NCBI RefSeq assembly: GCF_013344475.1
Contig: NZ_JABUOU010000001.1
Coordinates: 558,001-622,000 of the forward strand
Direction: 5' to 3'
From: Martelella limonii
GTDB lineage: Bacteria; Pseudomonadota; Alphaproteobacteria; Rhizobiales; Rhizobiaceae
Length of the DNA: 64,000 bases
Below are positions 1,081-62,138 of the stretch, in pieces; position 1 is the stretch's first letter; each line of letters starts with the position of its first letter. Made by a program: the position numbers and the translations under genes. The notes beneath the pieces were generated by a model. The model was not told the origin of the DNA. It did not search any database and worked only from the letters and a program-made list of their open reading frames with translations.

Positions 1081-1470
1081 GTGAATACGACTTACATTAC
1101 AATCGATGGTGACGACATCGGTCAAAAAATCTCAGCGTGTTACTTTCGTAATGACAGTGAGGCACTTCTCGACCTCAACAGATCAATCGAAAACATTGTA
1201 GCCCACATTGCCACGCTCCTAGAGGACCAAGGCTACGTGGTGATTTTTTCCGCAGCTGACGGCGTAACAGCATTTTCTACTTCTCCTATCCTCTCGAACG
1301 CAGAGCTTTACGGTGAAATCAGCAAGATCGGAGGGAAGCAGTTAACTTTCTCAGCTGGCGTCGGGGCGACTTTAAGAGAGGCATACATAGCACTTCTAAC
1401 ATCAAAGAGTAACGGAAAGGCGCAATTAACAGCATATAGCGAGCTCGATAAAATATGTTCAGAGTATTAA
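1081..1470 (+). CDS. optS: Minimal CRISPR polymerase (mCpol), Panoptes OptS-like nucleotide cyclase
   Basis: The protein (129 residues) has the Palm fold signature of mCpol: YITIDGDDIGQKI at the N-terminus, a central VIFSAADGV in the place of the GGDD-type metal motif, and TFSAGVGATLREAYIALL followed by KSNGKAQL near the end. Known mCpol proteins make cyclic dinucleotides. In Panoptes these are decoys that keep the membrane effector silent until phage proteins deplete them. I chose GTG 1081 because GGAG lies at 1069-1072 and the protein then starts right before the first strand; ATG 1057 would add eight residues. The 3' end overlaps the next gene by 16 bases, so the two are probably translationally coupled. 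The AADG in place of GGDD is unusual. Confidence 0.85.
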   Translation: MNTTYITIDGDDIGQKISACYFRNDSEALLDLNRSIENIVAHIATLLEDQGYVVIFSAADGVTAFSTSPILSNAELYGEISKIGGKQLTFSAGVGATLREAYIALLTSKSNGKAQLTAYSELDKICSEY

Positions 1471-2069
1471 ATTTTATAACATTAATACGATACGTTGCTG
1501 TTTCTGCGTCCGTAATTAGCGTCGGACTCTATGAGTTACTCAGAAATTATTTAATTTCAGATCTACCAATAATAAGAATACTTAGCATAACTCCGTGGGC
1601 CGTGATATTAGTAATATTTTTAATTACAAATAAAAAGATTTCTAGATTTGTCTGGGCTATCTTTAGAAGATTCAACAGGTCTCTCTACCCTGATCTCAAC
1701 GGAACATGGCGCGGAGAAATTATAATCGAAGGGGGCAAGACAATAGAAGCTAGGGCCATCATAAGGCAAACGTTGATGCAGACCCAAATCGATCTTCATA
1801 CTGCTACAACGAAATCTCTAACACTGGAGACCACACCAGCCGAAGAGAGCGGACAATTGAAACTATATTATAGTTATAGGTCTACACCTAAGAATATTGA
1901 ATGGAGTACCTATACTGGATCGACGGTTTTTGACGTCAGGGCGGCAACGGAAGAGCCCGAGCGTGCTCTTGAGTTATCAGGTTACTATTTCACGGATCGA
2001 AAGACGACGGGACGTGTGCGTTTACAACAGATCAGCAAGGAATATGACACAGACGTGTCATATTATTGA
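1455..2069 (+). CDS. optE: Two-transmembrane beta-barrel effector (2TM-beta, Panoptes OptE-like)
   Basis: The 204-residue product has two hydrophobic segments (about residues 8-27 and 41-59), a basic stretch, and then LYPDLNGTWRGEI, the entry to the small beta-barrel that binds cyclic nucleotides in Cap15-type effectors. It starts inside the mCpol gene, the conserved gene order of Panoptes. In the published model the ligand-bound form is inactive, and loss of the mCpol product lets the protein damage the inner membrane. The coding sequence is markedly A+T-rich compared with the CBASS genes at 2.4-6.9 kb, which suggests separate acquisition. The CBASS effector at 6170-6925 has the same architecture, but the two proteins are otherwise clearly different. 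Confidence 0.85.
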   Translation: MFRVLNFITLIRYVAVSASVISVGLYELLRNYLISDLPIIRILSITPWAVILVIFLITNKKISRFVWAIFRRFNRSLYPDLNGTWRGEIIIEGGKTIEARAIIRQTLMQTQIDLHTATTKSLTLETTPAEESGQLKLYYSYRSTPKNIEWSTYTGSTVFDVRAATEEPERALELSGYYFTDRKTTGRVRLQQISKEYDTDVSYY

Positions 2070-2394
2070 TCATTAGGAAAAGTCTGATTAGAGATTCGGC
2101 CACCTACTCCATAGGTCACGCCCTTAGGCGGCACCAAACAGCCAACGCAGAGTTCTGTTGCATGGCTAACATCTGCTTTGTCTATTCCTGAGCTTCGCCC
2201 CGCCATCCCCTTTCGGCCCCGTTTCTGCCGGTCGGCAGCGTGCCCCTAGGTTCGGCTGTTCCCGGTCAAATTTAGGCACCCCGAAAGCTGCCGTTGGCTA
2301 CTGCGTCCGCCAAAGTCCACTATGGCGACAGATCGGTCGTTCAAAGCCCTGAATCGAACGATGGCTTTGTCAGCAAACCGAACAATAAAAAAGG
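2070..2394. other. Intergenic stretch between Panoptes and CBASS genes
   Basis: No convincing gene is seen. The stretch separates the convergent ends of the optE-like and cap3 genes and marks a shift from A+T-rich to more balanced sequence. I see no strong hairpin followed by a T-run, so no terminator is called. Confidence 0.4.
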
Positions 2395-2949
2395 TTAGTT
2401 GTCTCGTTCGCTATACTGATCTGGACATTTGCCGTCGATCTCGCGGCTTCTCGCACCAAAAGCCTTGCTCTCGGTCAATGTTGTCGCGGTGAGAACGACC
2501 TTGCCGAAGGGGCCTTGCGCAGATAGCTCCCATGTCCTTGGATCGGGGTTAGTTCCCACAATCAACATTATGAACGCTTCGAGATCGTGGTCTGACTCCC
2601 TATAGAGATTGAGGATGGACCTAGCATCTGAGGGCGACGCTGTTGGGCGCGGCGATGGATGCGTGTGCCAAGTTCCGATGAAGTGTAGACCCGACCCATG
2701 CTTTTGGAGAACATCGGCTTGCACACTCGGCCGGTGGGGAATGTAACCATGCCGAGTTCTGCGATCTTGGGGGAAGGGACCGGACGCTACATCGATAGTG
2801 CAGTGCCGCCCAGGTGAACTGGAAAAAAGCGGGCCTCCGGCTTCACGGTCTCTCCACTTCAATTGGCGGTGCTTAAAAAACACCCCGAAAGCATTGGGCG
2901 CAAGGCTATATCGAAGTCCTAAGCGATCACTTACCCAGGCAATCATCAT
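2395..2949 (-). CDS. cap3: CBASS Cap3, JAMM/Mov34 metal-dependent isopeptidase
   Basis: The 184-residue protein has the full JAMM zinc-peptidase signature: EAGGPLFS around residue 36 supplies the glutamate, and GTWHTHPSPRPTASPSD around 93-108 supplies two histidines and the aspartate. Cap3 removes the CD-NTase from proteins to which Cap2 has conjugated it. The ATG at 2949 overlaps the cap2 stop codon (ATGA), so translation is coupled. A longer reading frame from 3096 exists, but it would lie inside cap2 and add arginine-rich sequence, so I reject it. It is the last gene of the cdnA-cap2-cap3 operon, the standard order for type II CBASS. Confidence 0.9.
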   Translation of the reverse strand: MMIAWVSDRLGLRYSLAPNAFGVFFKHRQLKWRDREAGGPLFSSSPGRHCTIDVASGPFPQDRRTRHGYIPHRPSVQADVLQKHGSGLHFIGTWHTHPSPRPTASPSDARSILNLYRESDHDLEAFIMLIVGTNPDPRTWELSAQGPFGKVVLTATTLTESKAFGARSREIDGKCPDQYSERDN

Positions 2950-4739
2950 GTGCTTCCGCAAATACGGCAATGATCGCGGCGGGTCCAGATACGCTCGAAC
3001 TCTCCTCCAGCATCGCACGGCCGACCTACGAACTTCTTCCACTCTTCGGACCAGTTTCCGCCGAAGGCACCGAGTACACGAGCGGGACCGGACCAAATCC
3101 GGTGAACATGGGTGGACTCGCCTAACAACTGCTCAAGACATAGATCAGCTATCAGGCCGTGGCCGCGCGCGAGTTGCGATGCTCCGTAGGGCTGAAAAGC
3201 ACCGCCGCACGCGGGATGCGTCCGCGTTGTCGTGCTTCCTGGCCATTCAGCGACACGGAGCAGGCTTTCGCCGAACGCGCTCAAGCCGCACCCGAAACAT
3301 GGTCCTCCTGCCGTAATCGATACCGCATGCGCTGCGACTGCATGCGGCTCCAACCAGCCGTAGATCGCCATAGGCGGACGATCTTGGGCAAGACGCCATG
3401 CCTCGAACGCGCCTTCATCCATCCAGGACCCGATCGCAACGAGAATGATATCCGAGTCGCACAAGACCTTCGGTTTGGTTTCCGCGATCGTCTGCCAACG
3501 AACATTATATCCACGCACATTTGGTAGATGTGGGAACTCATTGCGCAACCTCTCAGCCAACACGGACGCCTTCCATCGGCCCACGTCCGACATACCCAGG
3601 TCGTGTCTGGATGTGTTTTCACTCGCAAGGACTTCGTGATCGATTAGGTTTAGCCCACCCACACCCGCTTTCGCTAGAAGTGTGGCGACCCCAGAGCCGA
3701 GGGAACCGCATCCCAACACCGTGACAGACTTGCCTTGAAGCGCTCGCACTTCAGGCAGTTGGTCTCGCCCATGCACCCATGCCGCATCAAGGCGCTCCAC
3801 CTCCATGGGTGAAATTTTCAAAGATGCGCTGGCTCGCCGTTGGATCAAAACCTCGCGCGACATCTTCTTGGCTCTGAACCCAGCCGTTACATGCCTGCGC
3901 CCGCGCTCGGTCTCCTTCCGCGCACGTGGGATCTCATACGCGATCATTGTTGCATATGGCCTCGTCGGAAGCGCGACCGTCACCAGCAAGGCACCCAGGC
4001 CGCACACAAGCGGTTCAATCAAAGCACTCCGCTCTTCTCCTTGTGCTGCCATATCCAATAGCTGTCTGGCATTGCCGGGTAATTCTTGCGGGTTGGGTAG
4101 GGCATCCGGCTTCAGGACCACCGCTTGCTCGAACGCCCAAGGCCGCGTCGGGCGTCCGTGCCGACGATTGAGCCATTCGGCCAGGTGTTCTGCGTTATCT
4201 GATAGAACAAGTCCCGTTCGGCCTCTCCATAAGTAAGCCATAGGTCCATCGTACTCGCTCGGCGCCAAAAGCGATCGGATCGGTCGCGGCGCGCTCTTCC
4301 GTCCAAGATAGGATAGGTACTCGTCGGAGATTTCGCGCTCGACGAATTCTGGGTTCGACCAATCCGCTGCAAGCTCCAACAGCCTCTTCAGGTAGGCATT
4401 TGCAATCCCGACCGGATTGGCAGGATCTACAGGGGTTCGGCTGGGAAAGGCACAGATGAACCCATCTGCTTCAAGATGTGGGAGCGTTCCGAGCGTCGGC
4501 GGGCGCAGCATGTAGAGCCGAGGTGCCGACCAGGGGAAGACAGCGTCGAACACCAAGTCGACCTCCTTGATGTCTGGCTCGACCGCCACCCTGAAGCGCC
4601 ATCCTGCGACCCAAGGCCCTTTCGGCAGGCGCCGCAAATCGTAGGCAGTAAGTCTCTGTCCACGCCATTGGGTTTCAGCAGCCCGACCGACACTGCCAAG
4701 CACCTCACTCATTCCGTCAAGATCAAGCGTAGCGTTCAT
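2946..4739 (-). CDS. cap2: CBASS Cap2, E1/E2 ubiquitin-transferase-like fusion
   Basis: The 597-residue protein begins with an E2-like domain whose probable catalytic cysteine is C96 in LEADGFICAFPS. After a linker domain, an E1-like adenylation domain carries the nucleotide loop VLGCGSLGSG (about 341-350) and the NTSRHDLG segment. HPACGGAF around C511 is the likely E1 cysteine. CFGCG (481-485) and CRICG near the end probably bind zinc. Cap2 conjugates the C-terminus of the CD-NTase to target proteins and so primes it for signalling. The start lies 17 bases inside cdnA and the end overlaps cap3 by 4, so all three genes form one operon. Confidence 0.93.
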   Translation of the reverse strand: MNATLDLDGMSEVLGSVGRAAETQWRGQRLTAYDLRRLPKGPWVAGWRFRVAVEPDIKEVDLVFDAVFPWSAPRLYMLRPPTLGTLPHLEADGFICAFPSRTPVDPANPVGIANAYLKRLLELAADWSNPEFVEREISDEYLSYLGRKSAPRPIRSLLAPSEYDGPMAYLWRGRTGLVLSDNAEHLAEWLNRRHGRPTRPWAFEQAVVLKPDALPNPQELPGNARQLLDMAAQGEERSALIEPLVCGLGALLVTVALPTRPYATMIAYEIPRARKETERGRRHVTAGFRAKKMSREVLIQRRASASLKISPMEVERLDAAWVHGRDQLPEVRALQGKSVTVLGCGSLGSGVATLLAKAGVGGLNLIDHEVLASENTSRHDLGMSDVGRWKASVLAERLRNEFPHLPNVRGYNVRWQTIAETKPKVLCDSDIILVAIGSWMDEGAFEAWRLAQDRPPMAIYGWLEPHAVAAHAVSITAGGPCFGCGLSAFGESLLRVAEWPGSTTTRTHPACGGAFQPYGASQLARGHGLIADLCLEQLLGESTHVHRIWSGPARVLGAFGGNWSEEWKKFVGRPCDAGGEFERIWTRRDHCRICGST

Positions 4740-6006
4740 CTCCGCCCAGCTTCACCGCGGGCCGCTCGTCCTTGGTTTCAAGCAAGTTGTTGGTCAGAAT
4801 CCCCGGAGCAGCAACGGCATCCTCCGCTTGGGCCGCGTCGTCAAGAAAAAGGCTCACATCAGTCGGAAACCTCGAACCGAGGGCTTCTAGCATATGCCGC
4901 ACTGTGACCTGAGGCGTACTCGATCTGATCAGCGCCGCCTCCAACTGGGCCTCCAAGTCCATTGCAGCAGAAGCAAATTTCTGGCGGTCTGTCTCGCTCC
5001 ATCCTTGATCAAGGCGCTCACCCGGCACAACCGGATTCGGTATCTGTTTTCGCAAGATGTCGGGGAGCGCGCGCGCCACGGCAAGAAGGGCCAGATCATC
5101 GCGACCGTTGAATGATTTAAAGCCCTGATGGTTTTTGAATACTTCAACGACCGCCCACATGAGGGCGATCGAAGCAAGGCCAATCAGATCCTGCTCATCC
5201 CGCCAAGCCTTCAGGTAGCGAGAGACGAAGCGAACTTGGTCTCCGTGAGACCGCACGGCATCCCGGAACCAATCTTCAAGTTTGCGCGGGTCGGACGGAA
5301 TCCACTTGCCGCGTCCGTCTTCGCCGCGGCAGGCCAAACGCATCTGGTCAGCAGAAAGCCGTCCATAGATTTCATTGGCGAAGTCATCATCGCGCAAATC
5401 CATGAATCCGTCCCTGATAACACGGTCTTGAGCCATCGCCGTCTCGACCAAGGTTGCGAATTCCTTCTCCGGCACAGCGTAGAGAGCGATGTCCACGTGC
5501 GCCTCCCGGTCAATCTCGACCCGAACGCAGGATGTCTTCTTCTTGAGTGTCCACCCGTTCTTTTTGCAAACATCTGATACAAGCTGCTCAACGGCTCTGA
5601 AGTAGCCATCTGCCGCAACAGAAGGTGCGAGAGCGCCATCACGATTGATGTAGCGTGTCGGAAGGAACATGCCGTCGTCCAGATCGATCTGAAGCGGCGG
5701 CGCCTTGCCCTTGGCCGGATCGTTCACTGTCGAGTATGAAAAGCTTCCTTGCATCCGAAACTTCGGCCGACCAAAAGCCTCAGAGATATCCGTCTGCTCA
5801 GAGTCGAGTGCATAGATTGCATCACGCGTGATCATCTCAGTGATTGGAAAGCGGTCAGTCCAGTCCGTTAGTCCAGAACGTATCGCGTCTCGCAACTCGT
5901 CACGAACCGCGCGCAGCTCGTCTTCACGATCCTTGGGAAGCTTAAGCTTCTTTATGTAACTACTTTCATTGGCACTGTTGAGCGCTTTGTGCGCGTTAAC
6001 CGGCAT
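4723..6006 (-). CDS. cdnA: CBASS CD-NTase, DncV-like (clade A) cyclic nucleotide synthase
   Basis: The 427-residue protein lines up along its length with Vibrio cholerae DncV: RMQGSFSYSTVN (G87-S88) and IDLDDGMFLP (D108, D110) form the nucleotidyltransferase core, and the third metal ligand is D172 in HVDIALYAVP. The GDERY-Ala C-terminus ends in a small residue, as expected for Cap2-dependent conjugation. DncV-type enzymes make 3',3'-cGAMP or related cyclic dinucleotides on phage infection; the exact product cannot be read from the sequence. It is the first gene of the cdnA-cap2-cap3 operon and its promoter must lie in 6007-6169, shared with the divergent effector gene. Confidence 0.93.
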   Translation of the reverse strand: MPVNAHKALNSANESSYIKKLKLPKDREDELRAVRDELRDAIRSGLTDWTDRFPITEMITRDAIYALDSEQTDISEAFGRPKFRMQGSFSYSTVNDPAKGKAPPLQIDLDDGMFLPTRYINRDGALAPSVAADGYFRAVEQLVSDVCKKNGWTLKKKTSCVRVEIDREAHVDIALYAVPEKEFATLVETAMAQDRVIRDGFMDLRDDDFANEIYGRLSADQMRLACRGEDGRGKWIPSDPRKLEDWFRDAVRSHGDQVRFVSRYLKAWRDEQDLIGLASIALMWAVVEVFKNHQGFKSFNGRDDLALLAVARALPDILRKQIPNPVVPGERLDQGWSETDRQKFASAAMDLEAQLEAALIRSSTPQVTVRHMLEALGSRFPTDVSLFLDDAAQAEDAVAAPGILTNNLLETKDERPAVKLGGDERYA

Positions 6007-6169
6007 AATGTGCCCCTCTCGCTCTAGCGACCAAAATCATCAACTGGACTTTCAGCCTGCAGGATAGGATAACAGCATGTAGTGACTAAATAGTCGTATG
6101 CCCGCTATATATATGGCATTTCAATCTGAGTCCAAGACATTGATGCCGCGAGGTGCAGGAGAATAAAGC
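6007..6169. promoter_or_regulatory. Divergent promoter region of the CBASS locus
   Basis: This 163-base gap separates the start codons of the CD-NTase operon (minus) and the Cap15-like effector (plus). It contains a TATATATA tract near 6105-6113 that could supply a -10 region. A GCAGGAG sequence at about 6154-6162 lies at a suitable distance to be the ribosome binding site of the effector. No regulator gene of the CapW or CapH/CapP type is seen nearby. Confidence 0.5.
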
Positions 6170-6925
6170 ATGTATACACTTTTGCCGTGGAAAACCCTGG
6201 GTACGGCGCTGATGATCGTCGTTGGACTTGCTGTCTATGCAGACAATTTCGGCGCTTGGGTCGGTCTGACCGTTTCCGATTCGCAGATCATCCGCTACCT
6301 GCCGGCGGCTGTTCTTGCAGTACTTGGGATCGCCTTCGGCGTCACGGCTTACTGGGCGCCATGGCGGTACCTTTGGCGAACGATGCCAGTGCTCAACCGG
6401 ACTGTGTTCCCGGACCTTAATGGTGTGTGGGTCGGGACAACTGCATCGAACTGGCCGACCATTGAAAAGATGCGAAAGGCGGCAAGTACAGAGAGCGCAA
6501 TCGACCTTGCTGAGCTCTGCGAAACGGCGGAGCGCCTTGATGCCATCGCAGTTGAGATTACCGCTTCGCTTTACTCATTCGGGCTTAAGACGGGGCTGAG
6601 CTCTATGGACGCCACCTCTTACTCCATCACTGCACGACCCTGGAAGTGTCAGCATACACCACGCATTCACCTCGCCTATGTGTATGAACAAGAAACCAAA
6701 GATCCCTCGGCCACGGACGAAGAACGTCACATGGGGGCAGCCGATCTCATGTATGACCCGCATTCTCCCGATGACCTCGAAGGTGTCTATTGGACAAGGC
6801 GTAGCTGGATCGAAGGGCTGAATACAGCTGGCCGTCTCAGATTACGTCGAGTGGCGCCCTCGAAAGATCCCTCGAAGACCCTTCGCGATTACGCTCTGGA
6901 GGAAAAGGCGCGGCTCGACGCATGA
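6170..6925 (+). CDS. cap15: CBASS effector Cap15-like, two TM segments plus beta-barrel
   Basis: The 251-residue protein has two membrane helices (about residues 10-30 and 41-62), then NRTVFPDLNGVWVGTT, the hallmark entry to the beta-barrel domain of Cap15 effectors. In this family binding of the CD-NTase product causes oligomerisation and inner-membrane disruption. The gene is transcribed away from the cdnA operon, unusual because CBASS effectors normally sit in the same operon. A clear GCAGGAG precedes the ATG. The PDLNG motif is shared with the Panoptes effector at 1455-2069, but the barrel here is longer, with an insertion rich in alanine and glutamate after the first strand. Confidence 0.85.
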   Translation: MYTLLPWKTLGTALMIVVGLAVYADNFGAWVGLTVSDSQIIRYLPAAVLAVLGIAFGVTAYWAPWRYLWRTMPVLNRTVFPDLNGVWVGTTASNWPTIEKMRKAASTESAIDLAELCETAERLDAIAVEITASLYSFGLKTGLSSMDATSYSITARPWKCQHTPRIHLAYVYEQETKDPSATDEERHMGAADLMYDPHSPDDLEGVYWTRRSWIEGLNTAGRLRLRRVAPSKDPSKTLRDYALEEKARLDA

Positions 6926-8505
6926 CGTCCATCTTCTGCTAGCGTTCTTACTGGATTTGCTGCGGCGAGCCTTCGTGTTTTCGGATCGTTCTCAGATGTC
7001 TACGTTAGATGTCTGTGTCGTTATCTACTTTCCCAATAGCTGCCGTCCGGTGCGAAGCGGCAGTCCGGTAGGTTTGGGCCAAAAAACGAAGTCGGCGGCC
7101 ACCGATGCGTATGCTTGAATAGCCAGGTTTCACGATCATGCTTGGTGATCTGGGCCGCAGGTCTGAATCGTAGATCAAATCAAAAACGCTTGGCATATCT
7201 GACAATGGTTCTGGATGCGGACAGTGATGGGAGAGCACCACTGTCTTACACGCAAAGCCGTTTTTCCAAACAGTACCGCAGCGCGAAGCCCGAGTCTGAC
7301 TGCTTCTCCTTATGGTGAGAAGCATTTGGCTGGGATTCTGTCGTCACTGATCGGCATGAAAAAAAAGTTAATTTCCTGATTCTATAAAGTTCACAAGTAT
7401 ATGTTTTTTAACGATTAACGTCGTTAACTAGGGGAGTTAGGGACGCTTACGACGAAGCGTTCGCCACGGTCGAACAACAATTCGATCTGCCGCTCGGGCG
7501 TCAGGCTCGTCGTGTTCGTTTCTGTTCGTCGTCGAATGATTATGGACAGAGTGGGGTCCGGCTATCAGGAGGACATGGCTGGTCTGATTTGTTGATTTAA
7601 ACTGCGTTTGCGTGATGTTGCAAGCGGCGGTTCCTAATGGTCTTTTGCTTGATGCTTTGTCTCTGCTCCAGGATTTCGTCCTGTCGCCATTGGAGCCGGC
7701 GACTTAGGCGTCCGACACACGCCCTCCGGCGCATTTTTGCTCTGTCGCCAGTTCGGGCGGCGGGTCGGGATACGTCAAGTCGAAGCCGGAGAGCTGACCC
7801 GTCAATTGGTGGTTCAGCGAGGGTGGAGTCAGGAATTCCTAGATGACCAATTACAGAGCGAGGCTTGCCACATCAAAGTGCGACATAAGAGCGACTTGAG
7901 CTAGTGTATTTTGTAACAATTGCTATCCAATAGGGCGTCGCTCCGCTTCGTAGCTAACAAGGAAAGAGGAGGGCGCCTGACTCTTGAATACAGCGGCCAA
8001 TCTCCAACCGAGGTTCATCGCAAACTGCAAGTCTCCATTCAGGACTTGCCCTCCCATCGGCGGATGGATGTAGGCATCGTCTCTATACAAAACAATCGGT
8101 TAGAGGAATGGCGCCGGCCAGCCGGGTCTCGCCGGTAAAAGCGTGTGAGCCAAAGAGCGTCCCTTAGGTTCAATTCCTCGCCAACACCTCGAACGATGAA
8201 TGCACGAAGCTCATCGACCGTCAGCAGTTTCTGCTGCGGGAAATGAGACCGCCGAGATGTTCGTTGTGTTTGGTTGCCGGGAAGTCACGGGCTACTCGCT
8301 CGGCTGGCCGGTGCGATCAAACGCTTTTGCAGAAAGATATGTTTGGATCAGATAAGGAAAAAGACTCTTTCCGAAGAGCAGGAACGCCAGGTACGCCGTC
8401 CACCTCAACGCTGGTAGGGCAGTGTGAATGTGTGGTGAGAAGGTATTTGCTGGAGTATTCATGTGTTATTACCAAATCATGTAATCCGTTTAACGGGGCT
8501 ATGAA
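6926..8505. other. Long intergenic region with no convincing gene
   Basis: About 1.6 kb without a supportable gene. An A+T-rich stretch at 7360-7430 contains an inverted repeat with arms TTAACGA (7408-7414) and TCGTTAA (7421-7427), a possible operator or promoter element. A short run on the minus strand near 7440-7530 reads like part of a decayed protein (PERQIELLFDRGERFVVSV), but no family can be named. The last 100 bases probably hold the promoter of the GGDEF/EAL gene. The region looks like a junction between two inserted segments. Confidence 0.4.
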
Positions 8506-15287: not shown

Positions 15288-15641
15288 CTATTCGATGGCC
15301 TCCGGCGTCCTCGTCTGGACGGAATGAACCCGTCGCCAGTCGAGACCTGCGAACAAGGCTTCGAACTGGGCGTGGGTTAGTGTCATCAATCCATCCTTGA
15401 TGCCAGGCCAAGTGAATGTGTGCTCTTCAACCCCTTTGTAGGCCATGACGATTCCGGAGCCATCCCAGTAGAGCAGCTTCAACCGCTCCGCCTTGCGCCA
15501 CCGGAAGACAAAGACCGTTCCCGTAAACGGGTCCTTGTGCAACTCGTTCTTCACCAACGCGGCAAAGCCGTGATGACCCTTCCGGAAGTCAACGGGTTTT
15601 GTCGCCACCATGATCCGTACGCGGTTCGACGGAAAGATCAT
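15288..15641 (-). CDS. tnpB: IS66-family accessory protein TnpB
   Basis: The 117-residue protein contains the defining IS66 Orf2 pattern: VATKPVDFRKGHHGFAALV near the start, FVFRWRKAERLKLLYWDGSG in the middle and LTHAQFEALFAGLDWRRV near the end. TnpB is needed for IS66 transposition but its biochemical role is not settled. It has its usual length and is the only intact gene of this element; with tnpA and tnpC broken it is unlikely to support movement on its own. Confidence 0.92.
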   Translation of the reverse strand: MIFPSNRVRIMVATKPVDFRKGHHGFAALVKNELHKDPFTGTVFVFRWRKAERLKLLYWDGSGIVMAYKGVEEHTFTWPGIKDGLMTLTHAQFEALFAGLDWRRVHSVQTRTPEAIE

Positions 15642-51126: not shown

Positions 51127-52392
51127 TCAAAATGCCAATGGCTGCAACAGATCACTCAATTGCTCCAGGCTCGCTCCGGCGCCATAGCGTTCTCTATTGA
51201 GGGCATGCCCCATCAGATCGCGGCGGATGCGCTCGTCAAGGCCAGCGGCCAGCATGCGATCCTCGAAGGAATGCCGCAGGCAATAAAGCGTGTGCTCTGC
51301 TGTTTCACACAAACCGTTTTCCCTGAGAAACTTGTTCACCGTACCACTCAGGCCCGCCGAACGCGTCTGGTACCTTGAAAAGCCCTCCGGGAACGGCCTC
51401 ATGGCCTCAAGAGAAACGCCGATCAGGGGTATGGCACGTCTTGCATTGCCGCTCTTCAGCTTCCGACCGATCGGCTTGATCGAAATGTGAGGAATATTGG
51501 CATCCAAATGGATCTCGTCTGGCGTGAGGCCTGCGAGTTCACTCGGTCTTGCTCCGGTATTGACCATAGCGAGAAGAATTGCCCGCGCCTGCTCATTCAA
51601 CCCGTCAAGCGCGCCAGGCCGCAATAACTGATCCCGGATCCACTCATGTGAGAAAGGTGGCCGGGTCTTGGCCTCGCCGGATTTCAGGGCAATATCCGTG
51701 AAGGGCAGAACGAGACCCAGTCTCTTCATGCGGTTCACAGTCTTGAGCACGTCGCCAAGATGCATGAAGTCCTTGTTGGCTGTGTCGGGCGATATGTCCT
51801 CGATATCGACTCGCTCCACCCACCACGCACGAAAATCCAGCATGACGTCGCCGGAAATTTCGTTCAGTGGAAGGTTTCCGCAAACCGAGATGAAATTCCT
51901 GACGGCCTTGATCCGAGGGTTGCGCCATCGGCGCAATTGATCTTCACTCTTGCCAACTATTCGATCTTTCGCCAGCGGCCAGTAGAGTTCGAGCGCGCGC
52001 TCGACCGAAATGAGCGGTTCGCCAACGCCGCCCAGCAAAGCGGCCGCTTCCTGTGGCACGTGCCGTTGATCTGATACGGTTTCGATGCGCTCCAGCAGTT
52101 CAGCTCTGGGAAGTTGGGCGACCTTCTCTGACGTGAGATAGCGATAGCCGCGCCGCTGGGCTAGTTCTGCAGCTGCCTGAAACCGCACCTCGGCATCATC
52201 GGTATCGCCGGCAAGTCGAGCCTCCCACGCTTCGATCTGCTCGGCCCATATCAGAGGTGCCTTGGCCTTGGCCTGTGTCTCGGAATCAGTATGGAGGCTC
52301 AGCCAGATTTCGCTACGGCTTTCGACAGGCGCAAAGCGCTTCGGGACACGCCGCCGGATATAGAATACCGATCCTCTTCGCATAAGCGGCAT
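51127..52392 (-). CDS. int: Tyrosine-type site-specific integrase of the island
   Basis: The 421-residue protein has the N-terminal DUF6538-like start (RRGSVFYIRRRVPKRFAPVE), a SAM-like core-binding domain, and the catalytic domain: NTGARPSELAGL (arginine), HTLYCLRHSFEDRM (H-x-x-R), GH and the nucleophile in RERYGAG. It begins about 145 bases from the 3' end of tRNA-Ser and is read away from it, the usual layout for an island inserted into a tRNA 3' end. It probably integrated the accessory segment that extends leftward. The other attachment site is not in the window. Confidence 0.92.
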   Translation of the reverse strand: MPLMRRGSVFYIRRRVPKRFAPVESRSEIWLSLHTDSETQAKAKAPLIWAEQIEAWEARLAGDTDDAEVRFQAAAELAQRRGYRYLTSEKVAQLPRAELLERIETVSDQRHVPQEAAALLGGVGEPLISVERALELYWPLAKDRIVGKSEDQLRRWRNPRIKAVRNFISVCGNLPLNEISGDVMLDFRAWWVERVDIEDISPDTANKDFMHLGDVLKTVNRMKRLGLVLPFTDIALKSGEAKTRPPFSHEWIRDQLLRPGALDGLNEQARAILLAMVNTGARPSELAGLTPDEIHLDANIPHISIKPIGRKLKSGNARRAIPLIGVSLEAMRPFPEGFSRYQTRSAGLSGTVNKFLRENGLCETAEHTLYCLRHSFEDRMLAAGLDERIRRDLMGHALNRERYGAGASLEQLSDLLQPLAF

Positions 52393-52536
52393 CGCATGCT
52401 CCCGTCCGAAAAGTGGAGCAGAATGTGTAGCACATCGTGTAGCAAATCACGAGGCCGGCCAGCGGTGACTGAGGGCATTAATCACTAAGCTACTGATATA
52501 AAATCGGAAAATAAACTGAGGCGAGGAGTCGATCGG

Positions 52537-52623
52537 CGGAGGAGGTGGGATTCGAACCCACGGTACGCTTTCACGCACGCCGGTTTTCAAGACCGGTGCC
52601 TTAAACCGCTCGGCCACTCCTCC
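52537..52623 (-). tRNA. tRNA-Ser (anticodon TGA)
   Basis: The minus strand begins with acceptor GGAGGAG, then GTGGCCGAGCGGTTTAAGGC (D-arm), the anticodon stem-loop CCGGTCTTGAAAACCGG with anticodon TGA, a long variable arm as in serine tRNAs, the T-arm GGGTTCGAATCCC, and CTCCTCC closing the acceptor, with G as discriminator base. CCA is not encoded. The length is about 87 bases. Integrase genes lie on both sides. Confidence 0.96.
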
Positions 52624-52700
52624 AAGTGATTGATAAGTTTGCGTTTTAGGGTTTTCCCTGAAAACTGGAAAGCGGCATTTGCTACCGCTTTGCTACCCAA

Positions 52701-53858
52701 TCATTCACCGGAGCGCTTTGTAGCAGCTTTGATTGCCGCGTCAACTTGTTCTGCCGCGTTCGCCTGCATGCCGGGCATCACGTGCGAATACAGGTCGAGC
52801 GTAATGCCGATCGTGGAGTGTCCGAGCCGCTCACTCGCGATCTTAGGATGAACGCCGGCGGCCAGAAGTTGGGTAGCATGGCTGTGGCGGAGATCATGGA
52901 AACGGATACGGGGCAGGGTGGTTTTCTTTGCCAGCAGCCGAACCCATTCATGCGTCAGTGACGTGGGCTTAAGCGGGTTGCCATCGATCTGTGCGACCAC
53001 GAAAGAACTGTGCTCCGGGCGAAGGCCAAGCTTCAGTTGCTCTTCAGCCTGGGCGGCTCGGTGGCGCTTCAATTCGGCCAACACCGTCGATGATACTGCT
53101 ACGGTTCTCGCCCTGCCTGATTTCGGCTCTTTGTACCGGACTACCTGACCGACCTGTTCAGCGCTTTCCACAATCGCGATGACGCCGCTTTCCAGATCGA
53201 CATTACGCCAGCGTAGGGCGAGCACTTCGCCGCGCCTGAGGCCGCAAAGAGCCGCGAGCAGCGCGGGGATGAACATTCTGGTATCTTTCAGCGCTTCAAG
53301 TAGCTCGGCCGTCTGAGAGGCGCTGTATGCCTCTACAGTTGGCCGTTCGATTTTCGGCGGTCGGGTGAGGGCTACGGGGTTGCGCTTTAACAGATCCCAC
53401 TTCACTGCCTGCTCCATCGCTGTCAGCATCACGCGGCGGCAGTGATGAACCGTGCGGGGCGAAAGCCCGCCTTTCCCGTCCCTGCGTCCGTTTTCGAGTA
53501 GATGGCTCCATGTCGCATCGATGCGGGCCGGTGTCAGCTTGTTCAGTGTGATCGATCCCAGCGATGGCGCGATATTCTTCAGCAACAGGTCTTCATAGCG
53601 CTGGTGTGTCTTCGGCGAGACGTTGGCCTTTTCATGCTGAAGCCAGCGGATGAAATATTCCCTGACCGTCGTTTTGGCGGGCTCGATGTAGCTGCCGCCG
53701 TTCAGTTCCGCGACGAGCCGGGCGCACTCCGTCTCTGCCTGCCTTTTTGTACCGTGGAAGGTGTGCCATTTCCGACGCCGCTTTCCGGTTTCCGGATCAG
53801 GAACGTCCAATACAATCGCCCACTTGCCGGGGGAGCGTTCGCGGATATGGCCTTTCAT
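52701..53858 (-). CDS. int: Phage tyrosine integrase
   Basis: The 385-residue protein has the Arm-DNA-binding start (IRERSPGKWAIVLDVPDPETGKRRRKWHTF), a SAM-like core-binding domain (TVREYFIRWLQHEKANVSPKTHQRYEDLL) and the catalytic residues ALCGLRRGEVLAL (Arg), FHDLRHSHATQLL (H-x-x-R), LGHSTIGITLDLYSH (His and Tyr). The stop is about 78 bases from the tRNA-Ser 5' end. Its ATG overlaps the stop of the upstream RHH regulator (ATGA), so both are co-transcribed. Confidence 0.95.
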   Translation of the reverse strand: MKGHIRERSPGKWAIVLDVPDPETGKRRRKWHTFHGTKRQAETECARLVAELNGGSYIEPAKTTVREYFIRWLQHEKANVSPKTHQRYEDLLLKNIAPSLGSITLNKLTPARIDATWSHLLENGRRDGKGGLSPRTVHHCRRVMLTAMEQAVKWDLLKRNPVALTRPPKIERPTVEAYSASQTAELLEALKDTRMFIPALLAALCGLRRGEVLALRWRNVDLESGVIAIVESAEQVGQVVRYKEPKSGRARTVAVSSTVLAELKRHRAAQAEEQLKLGLRPEHSSFVVAQIDGNPLKPTSLTHEWVRLLAKKTTLPRIRFHDLRHSHATQLLAAGVHPKIASERLGHSTIGITLDLYSHVMPGMQANAAEQVDAAIKAATKRSGE

Positions 53859-54538
53859 TTTTCTTTTTCCTCTTTGCTTAAATGAAGCCTTTCAAGCTCT
53901 TCCTCGCTCTGCTTAAGAGCCTCAATCCGTTGCTCGAGAAACTTATCTTGGTCGGCGTCGTTCATTGCGTGATATTCAGCAACCTCTTCCGGCGTCATTC
54001 TTGACCAAACAGTAACAAGCCTTCTGTTCTCTTCCGCTTGTTCACGCGATTTTTGAATCTCATTCAAGCGAGAATTTGTGTTTGATATTGCTTCTTTCGA
54101 CTTAGTTGTTCCTTCTTGTATCGTCTTCGACTCTGCAAAAGGGGCTATACCATTAAATACTCCCAAGATCATTGTATAAAGCTCCTCGCTTGCGTCGGAA
54201 GCATCAGTCAAGTCACGCAGTATTTCTCTGAAAAGAGAATCGAGAGCTTTAAGCTCGTCGCCTGTGAGGTTGACGATTTTCTCTCGCACTTCGTCCACTG
54301 AACGCACAGTGTCGAAATAAACCCGCTCAATTCCATGATGGATTTCGTCGGCATAGTCGACGATGCCATCTAACTCGTTGTCTGCAAGAATACCTATTTG
54401 GCAGAGCCTTCTAACCGCTTCCGACCTTGAGGGGATGCGATTATCGAACCGCCAAGTATCGATTGCCTCAACCTCATCCTCAGTAATTTTAATGTGTAGA
54501 CGGGTCGTCTCGCTGTCGCCGAGTTTCGGCCGGGCCAT
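53855..54538 (-). CDS. Ribbon-helix-helix phage regulator with coiled-coil C-terminus
   Basis: The 227-residue protein opens with a ribbon-helix-helix module (TTRLHIKITEDEVEAIDTWRFDNRIPSRSEAVRRLCQIG) followed by a long helical region ending in a charged coiled coil (LEQRIEALKQSEEELERLHL). It is the first gene of the integrase operon. The region before it holds a perfect palindrome and two half-sites, so it is likely an autorepressor and may set the lysis-lysogeny choice in place of a CI-type protein, which is not seen here. Confidence 0.75.
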   Translation of the reverse strand: MARPKLGDSETTRLHIKITEDEVEAIDTWRFDNRIPSRSEAVRRLCQIGILADNELDGIVDYADEIHHGIERVYFDTVRSVDEVREKIVNLTGDELKALDSLFREILRDLTDASDASEELYTMILGVFNGIAPFAESKTIQEGTTKSKEAISNTNSRLNEIQKSREQAEENRRLVTVWSRMTPEEVAEYHAMNDADQDKFLEQRIEALKQSEEELERLHLSKEEKEK

Positions 54539-54570
54539 GAAAGTCTCTCCTTATTAGATGTGCACGATAC

Positions 54571-54641
54571 ACACGAAACTGTTGCAATCAAGTTAATTTC
54601 GAGTTAAATATCGTTTCGTGCACACGAAACGCACGAAAGGA
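54571..54641. promoter_or_regulatory. Prophage operator region with a 20-base palindrome
   Basis: CGTTTCGTG and CACGAAACG, separated by CA, form a palindrome at 54613-54632. Half-sites CACACGAAAC (54571-54580) and GCACGAAAGG (54632-54641) flank it. The cluster lies between the divergent RHH regulator gene and the early operon, the expected place for the lysogeny switch operators. Confidence 0.75.
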
Positions 54642-54650
54642 GGACTGACA

Positions 54651-54863
54651 ATGACGATTGAAGAGGCACTATCCAAACCCACCATCTCCGTGCCGGACGC
54701 CGGGGCGTTGTTTTTCGGCCTAGCCCGAAACGCCGCCTATGAGGCAGCCAAGCGCGGTGACATTGAAACGATCAGGGTAGGGGGGCGCATTGTGGTGCCG
54801 GTGGCACCGTTGGCGGCTCGGCTCGGCCTGACAACCAAGTTCGGAGCGGGAGCTACGGCATGA
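54651..54863 (+). CDS. Small helix-turn-helix protein, excisionase-like
   Basis: The 70-residue product has a MerR/excisionase-like DNA-binding pattern (ISVPDAGALFFGLARNAAYEAAKRGDIETIRVGGRIVVPVAPLAARLG), the standard helix-turn-helix followed by a wing. ATG 54651 has an ideal AAAGGAGG in front, so the in-frame upstream ATG is not needed. First gene of the rightward early operon. Such proteins act as recombination directionality factors or regulators. Confidence 0.78.
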   Translation: MTIEEALSKPTISVPDAGALFFGLARNAAYEAAKRGDIETIRVGGRIVVPVAPLAARLGLTTKFGAGATA

Positions 54864-55267
54864 GACCCCAGAACGCAAAAGGCCCGATCAGTGCGGTAAC
54901 ACTGCCGGGCCAAAGCTCAACAAACCAATTGGACGACGGCATGAAGAACTTTGCATCCACTACCACCAACCGCGACGAATTGCTAGCCGTCCGGCAAAAG
55001 CTTGAGGCCGGGCTGGAATACCTTGTTGCACTTCTCGATGAGATCGACGGCGAGGCCGATCGAGAAGACGACGGGACCGGCGAACCTGTTCTCGGATGGC
55101 CGCTGCAAGCTCACCCGATCACCAACGACATGACGTGTGACGATGACCGCGAGGAAGACGACGAACGGGAGGACGACAAGGCGGACAGCGAGCCATGGCT
55201 TGGAAGGCCGGAAGACGGGCATGACGGTCAACTGGCCGATACTGACCTGGAGGTGGATTACCAATGA
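54860..55267 (+). CDS. Hypothetical phage protein, acidic
   Basis: I do not recognise this 135-residue protein. The N-terminal half contains a helix (NRDELLAVRQKLEAGLEYLVALLDEIDGEA); the second half is very acidic and probably disordered (DDDREEDDEREDD). It overlaps the previous stop (ATGA) and the following start by 4 bases, so it is firmly part of the early operon. A possible alternative start is ATG at 54941. Confidence 0.6.
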   Translation: MRPQNAKGPISAVTLPGQSSTNQLDDGMKNFASTTTNRDELLAVRQKLEAGLEYLVALLDEIDGEADREDDGTGEPVLGWPLQAHPITNDMTCDDDREEDDEREDDKADSEPWLGRPEDGHDGQLADTDLEVDYQ

Positions 55268-55587
55268 CCCTATCACCATCAGTTGCTGTCGTTGATATCG
55301 ACCTTCTTGCTCAGCGCTTCCATGTCGCCAATGCCGCATGGCTGGCGACGGCGGATGAAAACGGCGATATCGAGGCGGTTGGCCCGGAATACGAAGCCGC
55401 GTGGGAGGCATGCAAGGACGTGCTGCGGCATCAGTGCAGATCGAAGGAAGAAGCAGTCCGCAAGACGGAAATCGTTCTCGGTCATGACTGGTTGATAGAA
55501 TCCGCTGACAGCAATTTCGAAGATGAGCGGTTCTATCTGCGAGACTTCCTGAAAACGCTCGTACCAACCGCGCGAGGCCGGTCATGA
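55264..55587 (+). CDS. Hypothetical phage protein
   Basis: The 107-residue protein is helical with no domain I recognise (VDIDLLAQRFHVANAAWLAT, YEAAWEACKDVLRHQ). It overlaps its neighbours on both sides by 4 bases (ATGA). Its position in the early operon suggests a role in replication control or host takeover, without direct support. Confidence 0.62.
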   Translation: MTLSPSVAVVDIDLLAQRFHVANAAWLATADENGDIEAVGPEYEAAWEACKDVLRHQCRSKEEAVRKTEIVLGHDWLIESADSNFEDERFYLRDFLKTLVPTARGRS

Positions 55588-55733
55588 TTAAAGGACGCGC
55601 GCGTGACGGCGGCTGTGAACAAACCAGAACAAAAACGGGATATGTCGGGTACATAGTTCAATTTTGCCGGACAATTGGTATACTGGCGGATCAGGGGAGG
55701 GATGGTGAATCAGGAACGGAGGACGCCGTTTAA
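55584..55733 (+). CDS. Very small phage ORF (49 residues)
   Basis: ATG 55584 overlaps the stop of the preceding gene (ATGA), and the TAA at 55731-55733 overlaps the next start (TAATG). The frame exactly fills the gap between two well-supported genes. The product is basic with two cysteines (MIKGRARDGGCEQTRTKTGY at the start) and has no recognisable domain. The coupling at both ends is the main evidence. Confidence 0.45.
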   Translation: MIKGRARDGGCEQTRTKTGYVGYIVQFCRTIGILADQGRDGESGTEDAV

Positions 55734-56128
55734 TGAGCATGCCCAAATCCTCTCAGCCTTCAGGCTTCGAAGAAGCCGATCAGGCAACTCAGGATCGTTG
55801 GATCCGAAATCTTCTGGGAAATGAGAACGCGGAACGTTTCAATCGGGTAAGCGGCCAGCAGCGGTTTCGGCCAACGCCCGTGCGAGTTCACTTCGAATAT
55901 TTCTTGCATGATGGCCTTTGGGTGATCTCTCGCTTCCAGAACGGTCAGCAAGAGCAACATGCCAGCCGCCTTTCAGAAGACGAATGCCGCAGCACCGTGA
56001 ACAAGCTCCGGGCGGCTGGTTATACCGTCCGAGAAACTCGGATCGGATTTCATGACAAAACCGAAAAACCTGTGAGTGAGCGCATGCGGAACATTGATCG
56101 CTTGGGCCTGTATCGGGAGCGCACATGA
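55733..56128 (+). CDS. Hypothetical phage protein
   Basis: The 131-residue product has a beta-rich centre (RPTPVRVHFEYFLHDGLWVISRF) and ends in a basic region. I recognise no family. Start ATG 55733 overlaps the stop of the small ORF before it; a second ATG two codons later is possible. The end overlaps the replication-type gene by 4 bases. Confidence 0.6.
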   Translation: MSMPKSSQPSGFEEADQATQDRWIRNLLGNENAERFNRVSGQQRFRPTPVRVHFEYFLHDGLWVISRFQNGQQEQHASRLSEDECRSTVNKLRAAGYTVRETRIGFHDKTEKPVSERMRNIDRLGLYRERT

Positions 56129-56583
56129 GCAGCAAGTACAAGCGCAAGGGCAAGGCCAAGTTCATCATGATCGAGCGCTATTTTTGGCGCTCGGAGGCTT
56201 GGGATAGTCTCAGCCCCGTTGAGCAAATGGGATATCTTCGGATTAAATGGCGGTACGACGGCAAAAACAATGGTCGCATAGGTTGCTCCTGCCGGGAAAT
56301 GGCAGACGAGTTAAAATGCAGCAAGGCGACGGCAAGCCGCGTCTTTAAAGTTCTGCAGGAGCGCGGCTTCATCGAGGTTGTCAAACCAAGCGGTTTCAGC
56401 CGCAAAGACCGCACATCTACCGAATGGAGAATTGCAGAATACCCTTGTGATGTCACCGGTGAAATAGCTTCGAAATCATTCATCCGCTGGCGCGCTGATG
56501 AAAAAACAACAGTTTCATCAGAGGGACACACAGTTTCATCAGGGGGACAGTTCGGCAGAATGAAGGTGGCAAATCATGGCTGA
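56125..56583 (+). CDS. Winged-helix phage replication-type protein
   Basis: The 152-residue protein has a helix-turn-helix with wing: SCREMADELKCSKATASRVFKVLQERGFIEVV, the pattern seen in phage replication initiators and plasmid-type Rep winged helices. YFWRSEAWDSLSPVEQMGYLRIKWRYDGKNNGRI precedes it, as in proteins that open phage replication regions. Iteron-like repeats in the last 80 bases of the gene and just after it (56511-56654) support a replication role with the origin inside its own gene. Confidence 0.7.
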   Translation: MSSKYKRKGKAKFIMIERYFWRSEAWDSLSPVEQMGYLRIKWRYDGKNNGRIGCSCREMADELKCSKATASRVFKVLQERGFIEVVKPSGFSRKDRTSTEWRIAEYPCDVTGEIASKSFIRWRADEKTTVSSEGHTVSSGGQFGRMKVANHG

Positions 56584-56654
56584 AAGACCTGAAAAACGAC
56601 CTCACAGTTTCATGAGAGGTACCGTCATCGCTTCTCACGGTTTCATGAGAGGTA
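56511..56654 (+). repeat. Four iteron-like repeats, probable phage origin
   Basis: AGTTTCATCAGAGGGAC (56511), AGTTTCATCAGGGGGAC (56532), AGTTTCATGAGAGGTAC (56606) and GGTTTCATGAGAGGTAC (56639) are direct repeats within and just after the winged-helix gene. The first two are 21 bp apart and the last two 33 bp apart, both near whole helical turns. Placement in the 3' end of a replication gene is a known phage origin layout. Confidence 0.6.
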
Positions 56655-56728
56655 CACATATAGTGTTACCAGGGGAGGGTGGCCGGGAGTATGTTCTGAC
56701 ACAGATCCGAGACAGGGTGGAGCGATAG
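56576..56728 (+). CDS. Small phage ORF overlapping the putative origin (50 residues)
   Basis: ATG 56576 starts 8 bases inside the winged-helix gene and runs to TAG at 56728, just before the next gene. The product contains SFMRGT and GFMRGT, simply because the DNA repeats are in frame, and a helical C-terminus (REYVLTQIRDRVER). It could be a real coupled gene or a by-product of the repeats. Confidence 0.35.
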   Translation: MAERPEKRPHSFMRGTVIASHGFMRGTHIVLPGEGGREYVLTQIRDRVER

Positions 56729-56731
56729 CCG

Positions 56732-57043
56732 ATGGAACACCAGAAAGAAACCGAGCTCCCGCTATTCGCTTGGACGCCTCCGAAGAAGTTGATGGTGTTT
56801 CCGCTCGTGTACCGGATTGGAAAAATCCGGGACGTGGCAACCAAGATGCTGGACAAACCGACGGAAAAGAGTGCTCGGCATTATCGACGGCAAGTTGACG
56901 AAGGGCTGACGGCTCAGCTTGAGCGGTTTGGCTTCGGTGACGGTGAGATCGGGCAGCAGCTGGACCTGTTCTGGCAGGCCGTGGAGCAGGAGATGCATCG
57001 TCAGTCTTACGAATGGACAAACAATCCGGGAGATGCGGTATGA
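56732..57043 (+). CDS. Hypothetical phage protein, DUF6074-like
   Basis: The 103-residue protein has the pattern LPLFAWTPPKKLMVFPLVYRIGKIRDVATKML followed by HYRRQVDEGLTAQLERFGFGDGEIGQQLDLFWQAVEQEM, resembling the DUF6074 group of small rhizobial phage and plasmid proteins. The function is unknown. It is followed by an ATGA overlap. Confidence 0.6.
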   Translation: MEHQKETELPLFAWTPPKKLMVFPLVYRIGKIRDVATKMLDKPTEKSARHYRRQVDEGLTAQLERFGFGDGEIGQQLDLFWQAVEQEMHRQSYEWTNNPGDAV

Positions 57044-57321
57044 GTGACGTGATCAAATTCCCGGCGCGTGACCGGATTGAAATCCATTTTTGCTTGGTAA
57101 CGGGAGCGACTGTCACTGACGCGAACGGAACCCACCGCGTTTTCTATCATGTCGGTGAACGACGATTTTTCGTTGACCTGATCGACTCTGATGGGATCCG
57201 GCTGGGTATGCACGATTGCGAAAGCTACGACGAGGCTATCATTGCGGCCGGCGATCTGGCGCGAGAATGGGGGTGCGAGGTTTACGATCGCGTGGTTCGC
57301 GACGAAGGCGGTGACGAATGA
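57040..57321 (+). CDS. Hypothetical phage protein
   Basis: The 93-residue product starts MSDVIKFPARDRIEIHFCLV and is beta-rich (RVFYHVGERRFFVDLIDSDG), ending in a helix (YDEAIIAAGDLAREWG). No family recognised. I start at ATG 57040, which overlaps the previous stop. The 3' end overlaps the next gene. Confidence 0.6.
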   Translation: MSDVIKFPARDRIEIHFCLVTGATVTDANGTHRVFYHVGERRFFVDLIDSDGIRLGMHDCESYDEAIIAAGDLAREWGCEVYDRVVRDEGGDE

Positions 57322-57578
57322 CAGACACCGCTCTGACCACGGCAGACATTGACCGCATTCTTGAGGGGGCATCGCGCCGGCGGCTACCCTCTCTTGCCAC
57401 GGAGAGCCTATGGGGTGCGCAGGCTATCGCCGACTTCATGGGCACGTCTGCGGACTATGTGAGAAAGCTGTCCACGACGGATGATGAATGCCCGATCCGG
57501 ATACGAGGCGGGCGGTACTACGCGACCCGGACAGAGATCGCGGAATGGCTGAGGCCGAAAGAGGAGCGCCGGCCATGA
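57318..57578 (+). CDS. Helix-turn-helix phage protein
   Basis: The 86-residue protein contains ESLWGAQAIADFMGTSADYVRKLSTTDDECPIRIRGGRYYATRTEIAEWL, a MerR/excisionase-type winged helix with the RGGRYYA wing. It overlaps both neighbours by 4 bases. In related phages proteins of this type lie just before the packaging genes and may act as regulator or small terminase, but here no large terminase follows. Confidence 0.65.
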   Translation: MTDTALTTADIDRILEGASRRRLPSLATESLWGAQAIADFMGTSADYVRKLSTTDDECPIRIRGGRYYATRTEIAEWLRPKEERRP

Positions 57579-57991
57579 TGAGAACGACGGAGTATGTCGA
57601 TTGGAAGCAGCAATGGGATGGTGTCCCTGTCGTATGGGGCGAGAGCGATTGCACTGCCTGGGCTGCGCGCTGGGTTGAATTCGCGACGGGCAAGAAGCTT
57701 GACCTTCCGAAATGGAATTCTCGGCGCGATGCGCAGAGGCTGATTGCTGAAGCAGGATCGCTGGAAGCTCTCTGGGACGAACATCTCGCCAAGGTCGGTA
57801 TCTATCAAACGTCAGAAGCCCGATGGGGCGATGTCGGTATCATGAACACCACGGTTGCGGGGCCGGTTGGCGGCATCTTTTCCCCTTGGGCCGCTGGCTT
57901 CAACTGGCGGGCAGAAGACGGTATCAGGCTGCTTTCCATCAGACCCGCCAATCTGATTGCCATTTGGTCCGTTGGTTACAATCCGGATTGA
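57575..57991 (+). CDS. DUF6950-like phage protein, possible NlpC/P60-type peptidase
   Basis: The 138-residue protein has VVWGESDCTAWAARWVEFATG near the start, with a cysteine in a helix start as in NlpC/P60-like peptidases, and a following RWGDVGIMNTTVAGPVGGIF. This is the pattern of the DUF6950 family usually found in tail modules. Start ATG 57575 overlaps the previous stop; an in-frame start at 57488 lies inside that gene. Finding it in the early region before the portal gene is unusual. Confidence 0.6.
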   Translation: MMRTTEYVDWKQQWDGVPVVWGESDCTAWAARWVEFATGKKLDLPKWNSRRDAQRLIAEAGSLEALWDEHLAKVGIYQTSEARWGDVGIMNTTVAGPVGGIFSPWAAGFNWRAEDGIRLLSIRPANLIAIWSVGYNPD

Positions 57992-58038
57992 GCGGGCTTT
58001 TCGTGTTTGCAAAGCGTTATAATAAGGGGTGAAGGATA

Positions 58039-58365: not shown

Positions 58366-58487
58366 ACGAAATTCGTACGGCTGGGACGAGCGCCACGGTG
58401 GCGAAAGCCAACTAACTACCTGTTTTAGCGTGATTAACTGCATTTCCGGGAGGCGCTTTCTGCATCCTGGTCGGCTATATTCAGGTC

Positions 58488-60075: not shown

Positions 60076-60077
60076 CG

Positions 60078-60578: not shown

Positions 60579-60585
60579 ACAACCT

Positions 60586-61740: not shown

Positions 61741-61750
61741 GGAGGCTGTC

Positions 61751-62137: not shown

Positions 62138-62138
62138 T

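Follow-up and report, generated by a model that had tools for sequence, protein, structure and literature searches.

Panoptes and a type II CBASS side by side in Martelella limonii as separate cassettes that re-pair

Gene content of the locus

In the 64,000-nucleotide stretch of the Martelella limonii genome analysed here (the window; contig NZ_JABUOU010000001.1, positions 558,001 to 622,000), a two-gene Panoptes system, optS–optE, stands beside a type II cyclic-oligonucleotide-based antiphage signalling system (CBASS) consisting of cdnA, cap2, cap3 and a gene for a Cap15-type effector. An earlier note on this DNA had described such a pair; the arrangement is confirmed, and profiles, matches to solved structures and an effector tree bear out the family assignments.

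The first gene, optS (1081–1470, + strand), encodes a minimal CRISPR polymerase (mCpol), as judged from the Pfam and NCBIfam mCpol profiles, solved OptS chains and residue mapping. Its 129-residue product, read as mCpol in the earlier note, lies above the curated cut-offs of both databases and matches the solved OptS chains 9mnr and 9nwn, with 43% identity over the chain stretch. Its metal aspartates, D9 and D60, align by residue mapping with D6 and D57 of the Klebsiella enzyme KpOptS, and by analogy the protein is predicted to be a constitutive cyclic-dinucleotide synthase. Base choice in KpOptS is set by S30 and N34 (PMC12657218); the equivalent base-contact positions in the window are N33 and E37, as against S/N in Klebsiella and N/N in Vibrio navarrensis. 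E. coli-type OptS carry S/N at these positions, and five alphaproteobacterial OptS (L003, L009, L011, L016 and L018) have R or K at the first and D or E at the second. Asn at the first position led to more 3',2'-cGAMP (cyclic GMP–AMP) in published swaps (PMC12657218), and the parts of the published OptS work available to us hold no tested counterpart for Glu at the second. Because N33/E37 is unlike the tested pockets, the decoy nucleotide made at this locus may differ from the tested ones.

The second gene of the operon, optE (1455–2069, + strand), overlaps optS by 16 nt and encodes a 2TM-beta effector predicted, by analogy with its published relatives, to disrupt the membrane when nucleotide-free. 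In a tree of 40 2TM-beta proteins it falls inside the OptE clade, and the window's Cap15 falls outside it, with the CBASS effectors.

The CBASS genes follow, three of them on the − strand. Closest to optE is cap3 (2395–2949), a JAB/JAMM isopeptidase gene recognized by the PADLOC JAB profile (137 bits) and by Prok-JAB (25.5 bits; cut-off 25); its start is uncertain, the longest open reading frame (ORF) extending to 3096, and its product carries an HTHP...SD motif that we take to be the JAB/JAMM signature. Next is cap2 (2946–4739), encoding a fused E2–E1 ubiquitin-like transfer enzyme (PADLOC E1-E2, 552 bits; ThiF and Prok-E2_B above cut-off), which the solved Cap2 structures 7tsq and 7to3 match in the E1 part only, at 39–41 bits. 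The DncV-like CD-NTase (cGAS/DncV-like nucleotidyltransferase) gene, cdnA (4723–6006), scores 353 bits with the PADLOC cyclase profile, 278 bits with NCBIfam cGAS (cut-off 150), 82.4 bits with the DncV-like nucleotidyltransferase domain and 54 bits with DncV_C, and its product matches solved DncV-type chains at up to 120 bits; the NCBIfam equivalog name and the likeness to DncV predict a 3',3'-cGAMP synthase. Divergent from cdnA, with 163 bp between them, lies the gene for the Cap15-type effector (6170–6925, + strand), which matches the PADLOC 2TM profile PDLC00674 at 337 bits over residues 1–246 of 246 and part of the Cap15_CD_rec profile at 33.6 bits (cut-off 31.2); the best match of its structural model (mean predicted local distance difference test score, pLDDT, 69.5) is 7n34. 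The assignment to type II rests on the CD-NTase, the ancillary genes cap2 and cap3, and an effector placed in the known Cap15 family by family and position.

Separate cassettes that stand together

The earlier note had argued from base composition that the two systems arrived separately. Within the window, optS has 45% and optE 40% G+C, as against 54–59% in the CBASS genes. However, the composition argument fails, since in G+C-rich loci optSE is A+T-rich throughout: its G+C content lies below that of its stretch in 10 of the 10 loci with at least 50% G+C (for L028, optE alone), including loci in which the Panoptes–CBASS layout is conserved, and Massilia optSE has 36–40% G+C in a stretch of 65%. 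The same holds in five of the seven A+T-richer loci, L015 and L017 not showing it for both genes. Low G+C is a habit of Panoptes genes and no trace of separate arrival. What stands of the claim, on other grounds, is that the modules have separate histories, as supported by conflicting trees, exchanged partners and inverted orientation.

Specifically, the CBASS cassette (2325–6931) holds genes of both strands and begins and ends a short way beyond cap3 and Cap15; blastn aligns it over 4,610 bp, from cap3 to Cap15, with the corresponding stretch of a Gemmobacter contig (L028) at 86% identity, and the sole further DNA match between the two loci is 270 bp at 66% within optE. Protein identities follow suit: 88% for CdnA, 85% for Cap2 and 88% for Cap15, as against 57% for OptE; moreover, the CBASS is oriented oppositely relative to Panoptes in the two genomes. 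The reverse case is provided by a Sulfitobacter conjugative plasmid (L003) and Yoonia (L009), which share 88% identity in OptE and 83% in OptS, as against 36% in CdnA and 28% in Cap2, and whose 1,015-bp DNA match covers optSE and 31 bp before it, up to the optE stop. Likewise, L028 and L016 share 88% of OptE, 45% of CdnA and 31% of Cap2. The conserved blocks end near gene edges in both the window–L028 and the L003–L009 comparisons. A clade of the window, L003 and L028 is rejected by the OptE data in the approximately unbiased (AU) test (p-AU 4e-48), whereas the CdnA data unite these three (support 100/98) and reject a clade of L003, L028, L009, L011 and L016 without the window (p-AU 0.003). 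By contrast, L011 and L016 have the same layout and are alike in OptE (78%) as well as in CdnA (87%).

Four layouts occur among 14 paired loci: the cap3 or cap2 end faces optE (window, L009, L019 and L037), Cap15 faces optE (L003, L028, L011 and L016), or the CBASS lies in the same direction either downstream (L013, L015 and L018) or upstream (L008, L010 and L014) of Panoptes. At the cassette edges in the window, no 10-mer is shared, direct or inverted, between the CBASS flanks 2070–2400 and 6901–7400, and no 9-mer in direct orientation between 931–1080 and 2070–2400. A 24-nt inverted pair (75%) around optSE, at 1043–1066 and 2154–2177, is one of 20 similar pairs and was taken as chance; promoter and terminator signals in the window do not rise above those of shuffled sequence. 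These conflicting trees, exchanged partners and inverted orientations support the view that Panoptes and CBASS are separate cassettes that re-pair. Many separate co-association events have been inferred from 37 CBASS clusters (PMC12657230); we found no resolved Panoptes–CBASS partner exchange in the available text of PMC12657218 and PMC12657230, the figures lying outside the search.

Genes for mCpol are rare. Counting the window's own genome, mCpol occurs in 1 of 297 genomes sampled from its family and 2 of 385 from its class; of 398 genomes from the phylum, 30 encode a DncV-like cyclase and 6 the Cap15 receptor domain. Random placement would put a cyclase within 10 kb about 3 times in 10,000 (0.075 x 20 kb/4.5 Mb), an estimate that ignores the clustering of defence genes. 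Scanning genome contigs of 84,980 species with a three-OptS alignment yielded 21 mCpol loci, a sample, as the scan needs exact short peptide patterns. OptE stands beside mCpol in 14 of them (L007–L020) and was undetected in six (L021–L023 and L025–L027). A fifteenth Panoptes locus is that of Gemmobacter, whose optS has its two ends on separate contigs (L024:10001-10237 and L028:10041-10175), with OptE on L028; one part lies contig-interior with another ORF after it, suggesting an interrupted gene or an assembly break. With the window, the Sulfitobacter plasmid and an E. coli locus (L037), the set comprises 18 Panoptes loci, 14 of which have a CBASS cyclase on the same contig within about 10 kb (window, L003, L028, L008, L009, L010, L011, L013, L014, L015, L016, L018, L019 and L037). 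The co-occurrence that the earlier note wished to see checked also holds in published data, with 91 CBASS nucleotidyltransferase genes, in at least 37 clusters, in 89 of 109 Panoptes neighbourhoods (PMC12657230); elsewhere, 53% of mCpol systems are reported in genomes with CD-NTases, about half of these as adjacent operons (PMC12657218). In E. coli, optSE is present in 18 of 5,426 genomes, near-duplicate records among them, and the same CBASS adjoins it in 18 of 18 at 99% identity or more, which points to one lineage. No Panoptes was found in phage genomes with an OptS query, nor in viral contigs with OptS, an OptS alignment or an OptE alignment, the viral-contig scans needing exact short peptide patterns.

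We consider it very likely that the window holds a Panoptes guard beside a complete type II CBASS with a divergent Cap15, working by the published guard mechanism, with the cassettes re-pairing over time. Gene content, catalytic residues, folds, clade membership and the separate, re-pairing cassettes are established. Upon infection, CdnA, primed by Cap2 and released by Cap3, would make a cyclic dinucleotide, probably 3',3'-cGAMP, and Cap15 would bind it and break the inner membrane. Meanwhile, OptS would constantly make a cyclic dinucleotide containing a 2'-5' linkage, by which OptE would be held in check; a phage sponge or nuclease blocking CBASS would deplete the OptS product as well, freeing OptE to kill the cell. 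Silencing of OptE by a constitutive cyclic dinucleotide and its release by phage Acb proteins have been published for relatives (PMC12657218, PMC12657230), from which we infer the nucleotide identities, constitutive synthesis, Acb sensing and synergy at this locus. The layered design proposed in the earlier note agrees with that published model; it is not new, and for the window it follows by homology.

Several points weigh against this reading. No CBASS cyclase was found within the 20 kb of L007 and L012, nor any PF21654 or PF18144 match in their genomes, which means that the partnership is not obligatory; we also count the short contigs of L017 (8.5 kb) and L020 (6.1 kb), on which no CBASS cyclase was found, the L017 genome having cyclases on other contigs. 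Enrichment beyond defence-island clustering rests on published figures. The clade tests were picked after the identities had been seen, and the CdnA tree, whose own test gave p-AU 0.003, has long branches. A search of solved structures with the window's Cap15 gave no sequence match at E 1 or better, its model is weak (pLDDT 69.5), and N33/E37 equals the pocket of neither tested OptS, so that the product of the window's OptS is uncertain.

Plain co-residence, in which mobile-element traffic gathers independent defence genes in islands with no functional coupling, appears improbable. It would accord with the lack of a shared operon in the window, the varied layouts, the two Panoptes loci with no detected CBASS, and the HEPN gene and insertion-sequence-like ORFs (identified by eye) nearby. 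Against it stand the 14 of 18 Panoptes loci with an adjacent CBASS, when only 30 of 398 genomes of the phylum have a DncV-like cyclase, and the re-pairing of Panoptes with different CBASS types. A single circuit, in which the OptS product acts on Cap15 or the CdnA product silences OptE, is very unlikely: in its favour, the models of OptE and Cap15, two 2TM-beta proteins, have one solved barrel as their common match, and at L010 the CBASS genes, Cap15, OptS and OptE are all read the same way, with a 12-nt gap, but partners are swapped among widely differing CdnA and Cap15, which speaks against a tuned pair, and co-resident systems need slightly different nucleotides by the reasoning of the authors of PMC12657218. 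At that same locus (L010:4728-10991), a patatin-like gene, CdnA, Cap2, Cap3, Cap15, OptS and OptE are co-directional, the gap falling between Cap15 and OptS, possibly a two-effector CBASS and Panoptes in one operon.

The guard reading, with its exchanged cassettes, suggests that Panoptes functions with very different CBASS types, in which case selection would favour having a guard rather than one matched pair. The pairing lends support to the idea, already in print, that bacteria place guards on their cyclic-nucleotide alarms.

The C-terminal tail of OptE

Without nucleotide, OptE is reported to be toxic and to form oligomers, which its ligand disperses, the reverse of Cap15 (PMC12657218, PMC12657230); the authors left the cause open as 'subtle differences in the protein' (PMC12657218). 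One such difference may be the C-terminal pentapeptide D-V-S-Y-Y of the window's OptE (2052–2066, + strand; residues 200–204), which lies past the beta-barrel. The structural match to Cap15 stops at residue 193, and model confidence is 86 for residues 191–200 and 74 for residues 201–204. Each of the 17 intact OptE has a conserved pentapeptide at its C terminus, [DE]-[VIY]-[SE]-[YF]-Y-COOH, the final residue being Y in 17 of 17, and terminal [YF]Y occurs in none of 23 2TM-beta proteins other than mCpol partners. These 23 comprise 10 CBASS effectors in Panoptes loci and 13 proteins from genome samples of two phyla; no convincing mCpol was found in the 3 kb examined for the 13. A weak mCpol-like tblastn match at L030 (E 6e-4, 44 residues), on the opposite strand within another ORF, was judged chance. 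Three proteins (L032, L036 and L044) were excluded as duplicates of proteins already counted, and a truncated second 2TM-beta frame of L008 (89 residues) was left out of the comparison set. The OptE of L013 was left out of the tail count and the OptE trees; in this Veronia pacifica locus (L013:2050-2661) an in-frame TAA breaks optE, and the frames of optS, the adjoining cyclase and Cap15 are open. The OptE of the cyanobacterium Trichocoleus (L020) is absent from the first OptE tree and present in the tail count and the 40-protein tree; its optS and optE are divergent, unlike the usual operon, with ORF starts overlapping by 2 nt (L020:4719-5703).

Rather likely, the pentapeptide does no more than mark the clade or serve as a degradation tag, and has no role in inverted signalling. 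OptE forms a single clade (17 proteins against the 23 others; support 99/96 in a tree built without the tail), so that one inherited trait covers all 17 cases and the tail could be a mere marker, and by conservation the last five residues of OptE come no higher than 26th among 200 five-residue stretches. Against this, the linker ahead of the tail varies (mean column identity 0.38 at residues 195–199) and the pentapeptide is held (0.82; barrel 0.70) across three phyla. More tentatively, and in our view doubtfully, the inverted logic of OptE, active when empty and silent when nucleotide-bound, may be built in by the pentapeptide acting as an agonist that the OptS nucleotide displaces. The two aromatic rings and two carboxylates of the tail would mimic a cyclic dinucleotide, docking in the barrel pocket of its own or a neighbouring molecule and holding together an oligomer of the kind for which Cap15 needs its ligand; displacement of the tail by the OptS product would then disperse the oligomer. 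A guard carrying its own 'on' ligand could fit beside any CBASS, which would explain free partner exchange. A broader role as a general mCpol-docking signal was rejected, terminal [YF]Y occurring in none of the ORFs listed near mCpol at seven loci of other types. The tail is unmentioned in the available text of PMC12657218 and PMC12657230, Supplementary Fig. 4 of PMC12657230 (Cap15 versus 2TM-beta residues) lying outside the search. In the examined set it separates mCpol-linked 2TM-beta effectors from the others.

Surroundings and relation to known systems

Just upstream of optS lies a RiboL-PSP-HEPN domain gene (296–937, + strand; 32.4 bits, 48% G+C) with no homologue in loci L003–L027 (tblastn) and one family match in the genome. 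ORFs resembling, by eye, an IS3 transposase and an IS66 accessory protein (L005:18845-19750 and window 15288–15641, both − strand) flank the defence region, and a right-flank protein, GGDEF/EAL-like by eye, is matched in 13 of 13 genus genomes, its own included. Further along, 26833–35186 matches, at 84% identity over 8.4 kb, part of a Roseibium plasmid whose annotation there lists an error-prone DNA polymerase, a helicase, a DNA polymerase Y family protein, ImuA and an SOS peptidase, and 51127–63000 is a probable prophage or integrative element, with a tRNA-Ser between two integrase-like ORFs and phage-like genes beyond (by eye). Elsewhere, a possible new type of mCpol partner is encoded next to mCpol (L006:9204-10471, − strand): it has 278 residues, seems by eye to contain a transmembrane stretch, and is matched by nothing in Pfam or PADLOC at E 0.01. 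In Pseudogemmobacter (L018:13138-18308) a patatin CBASS comes after Panoptes, with a second 2TM-beta effector beyond it and, at the contig end, the start of another cyclase.

Both founding papers describe the Panoptes–CBASS pairing, and the guard model is likewise published, so the window is a further member only. In the published adjacent operons the CBASS as a rule encodes a ubiquitin-like conjugation system together with a patatin or 2TM-beta effector (PMC12657218), the arrangement of the window. As far as the published accounts of Panoptes from Klebsiella, Vibrio navarrensis and E. coli ECOR31 extend (PMC12657218, PMC12657230), the mCpol/2TM-beta operon, the catalytic aspartates and the CBASS neighbour are the same, and the host genome here is of another species. 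The type II CBASS of Gemmobacter (L028) and of the Sulfitobacter plasmid (L003) have the four genes of the window and, like it, a divergent Cap15, but they are turned the other way relative to Panoptes and adjoin another Panoptes lineage. In the E. coli locus L037, ordered Hachiman–optSE–cap3–cap2–dncV–phospholipase, optSE is convergent with cap3, as in the window, and OptE belongs to the same clade and bears the same tail; by contrast, its CBASS effector is a phospholipase rather than Cap15, and its DncV and the window's CdnA share 30% identity over 320 residues.

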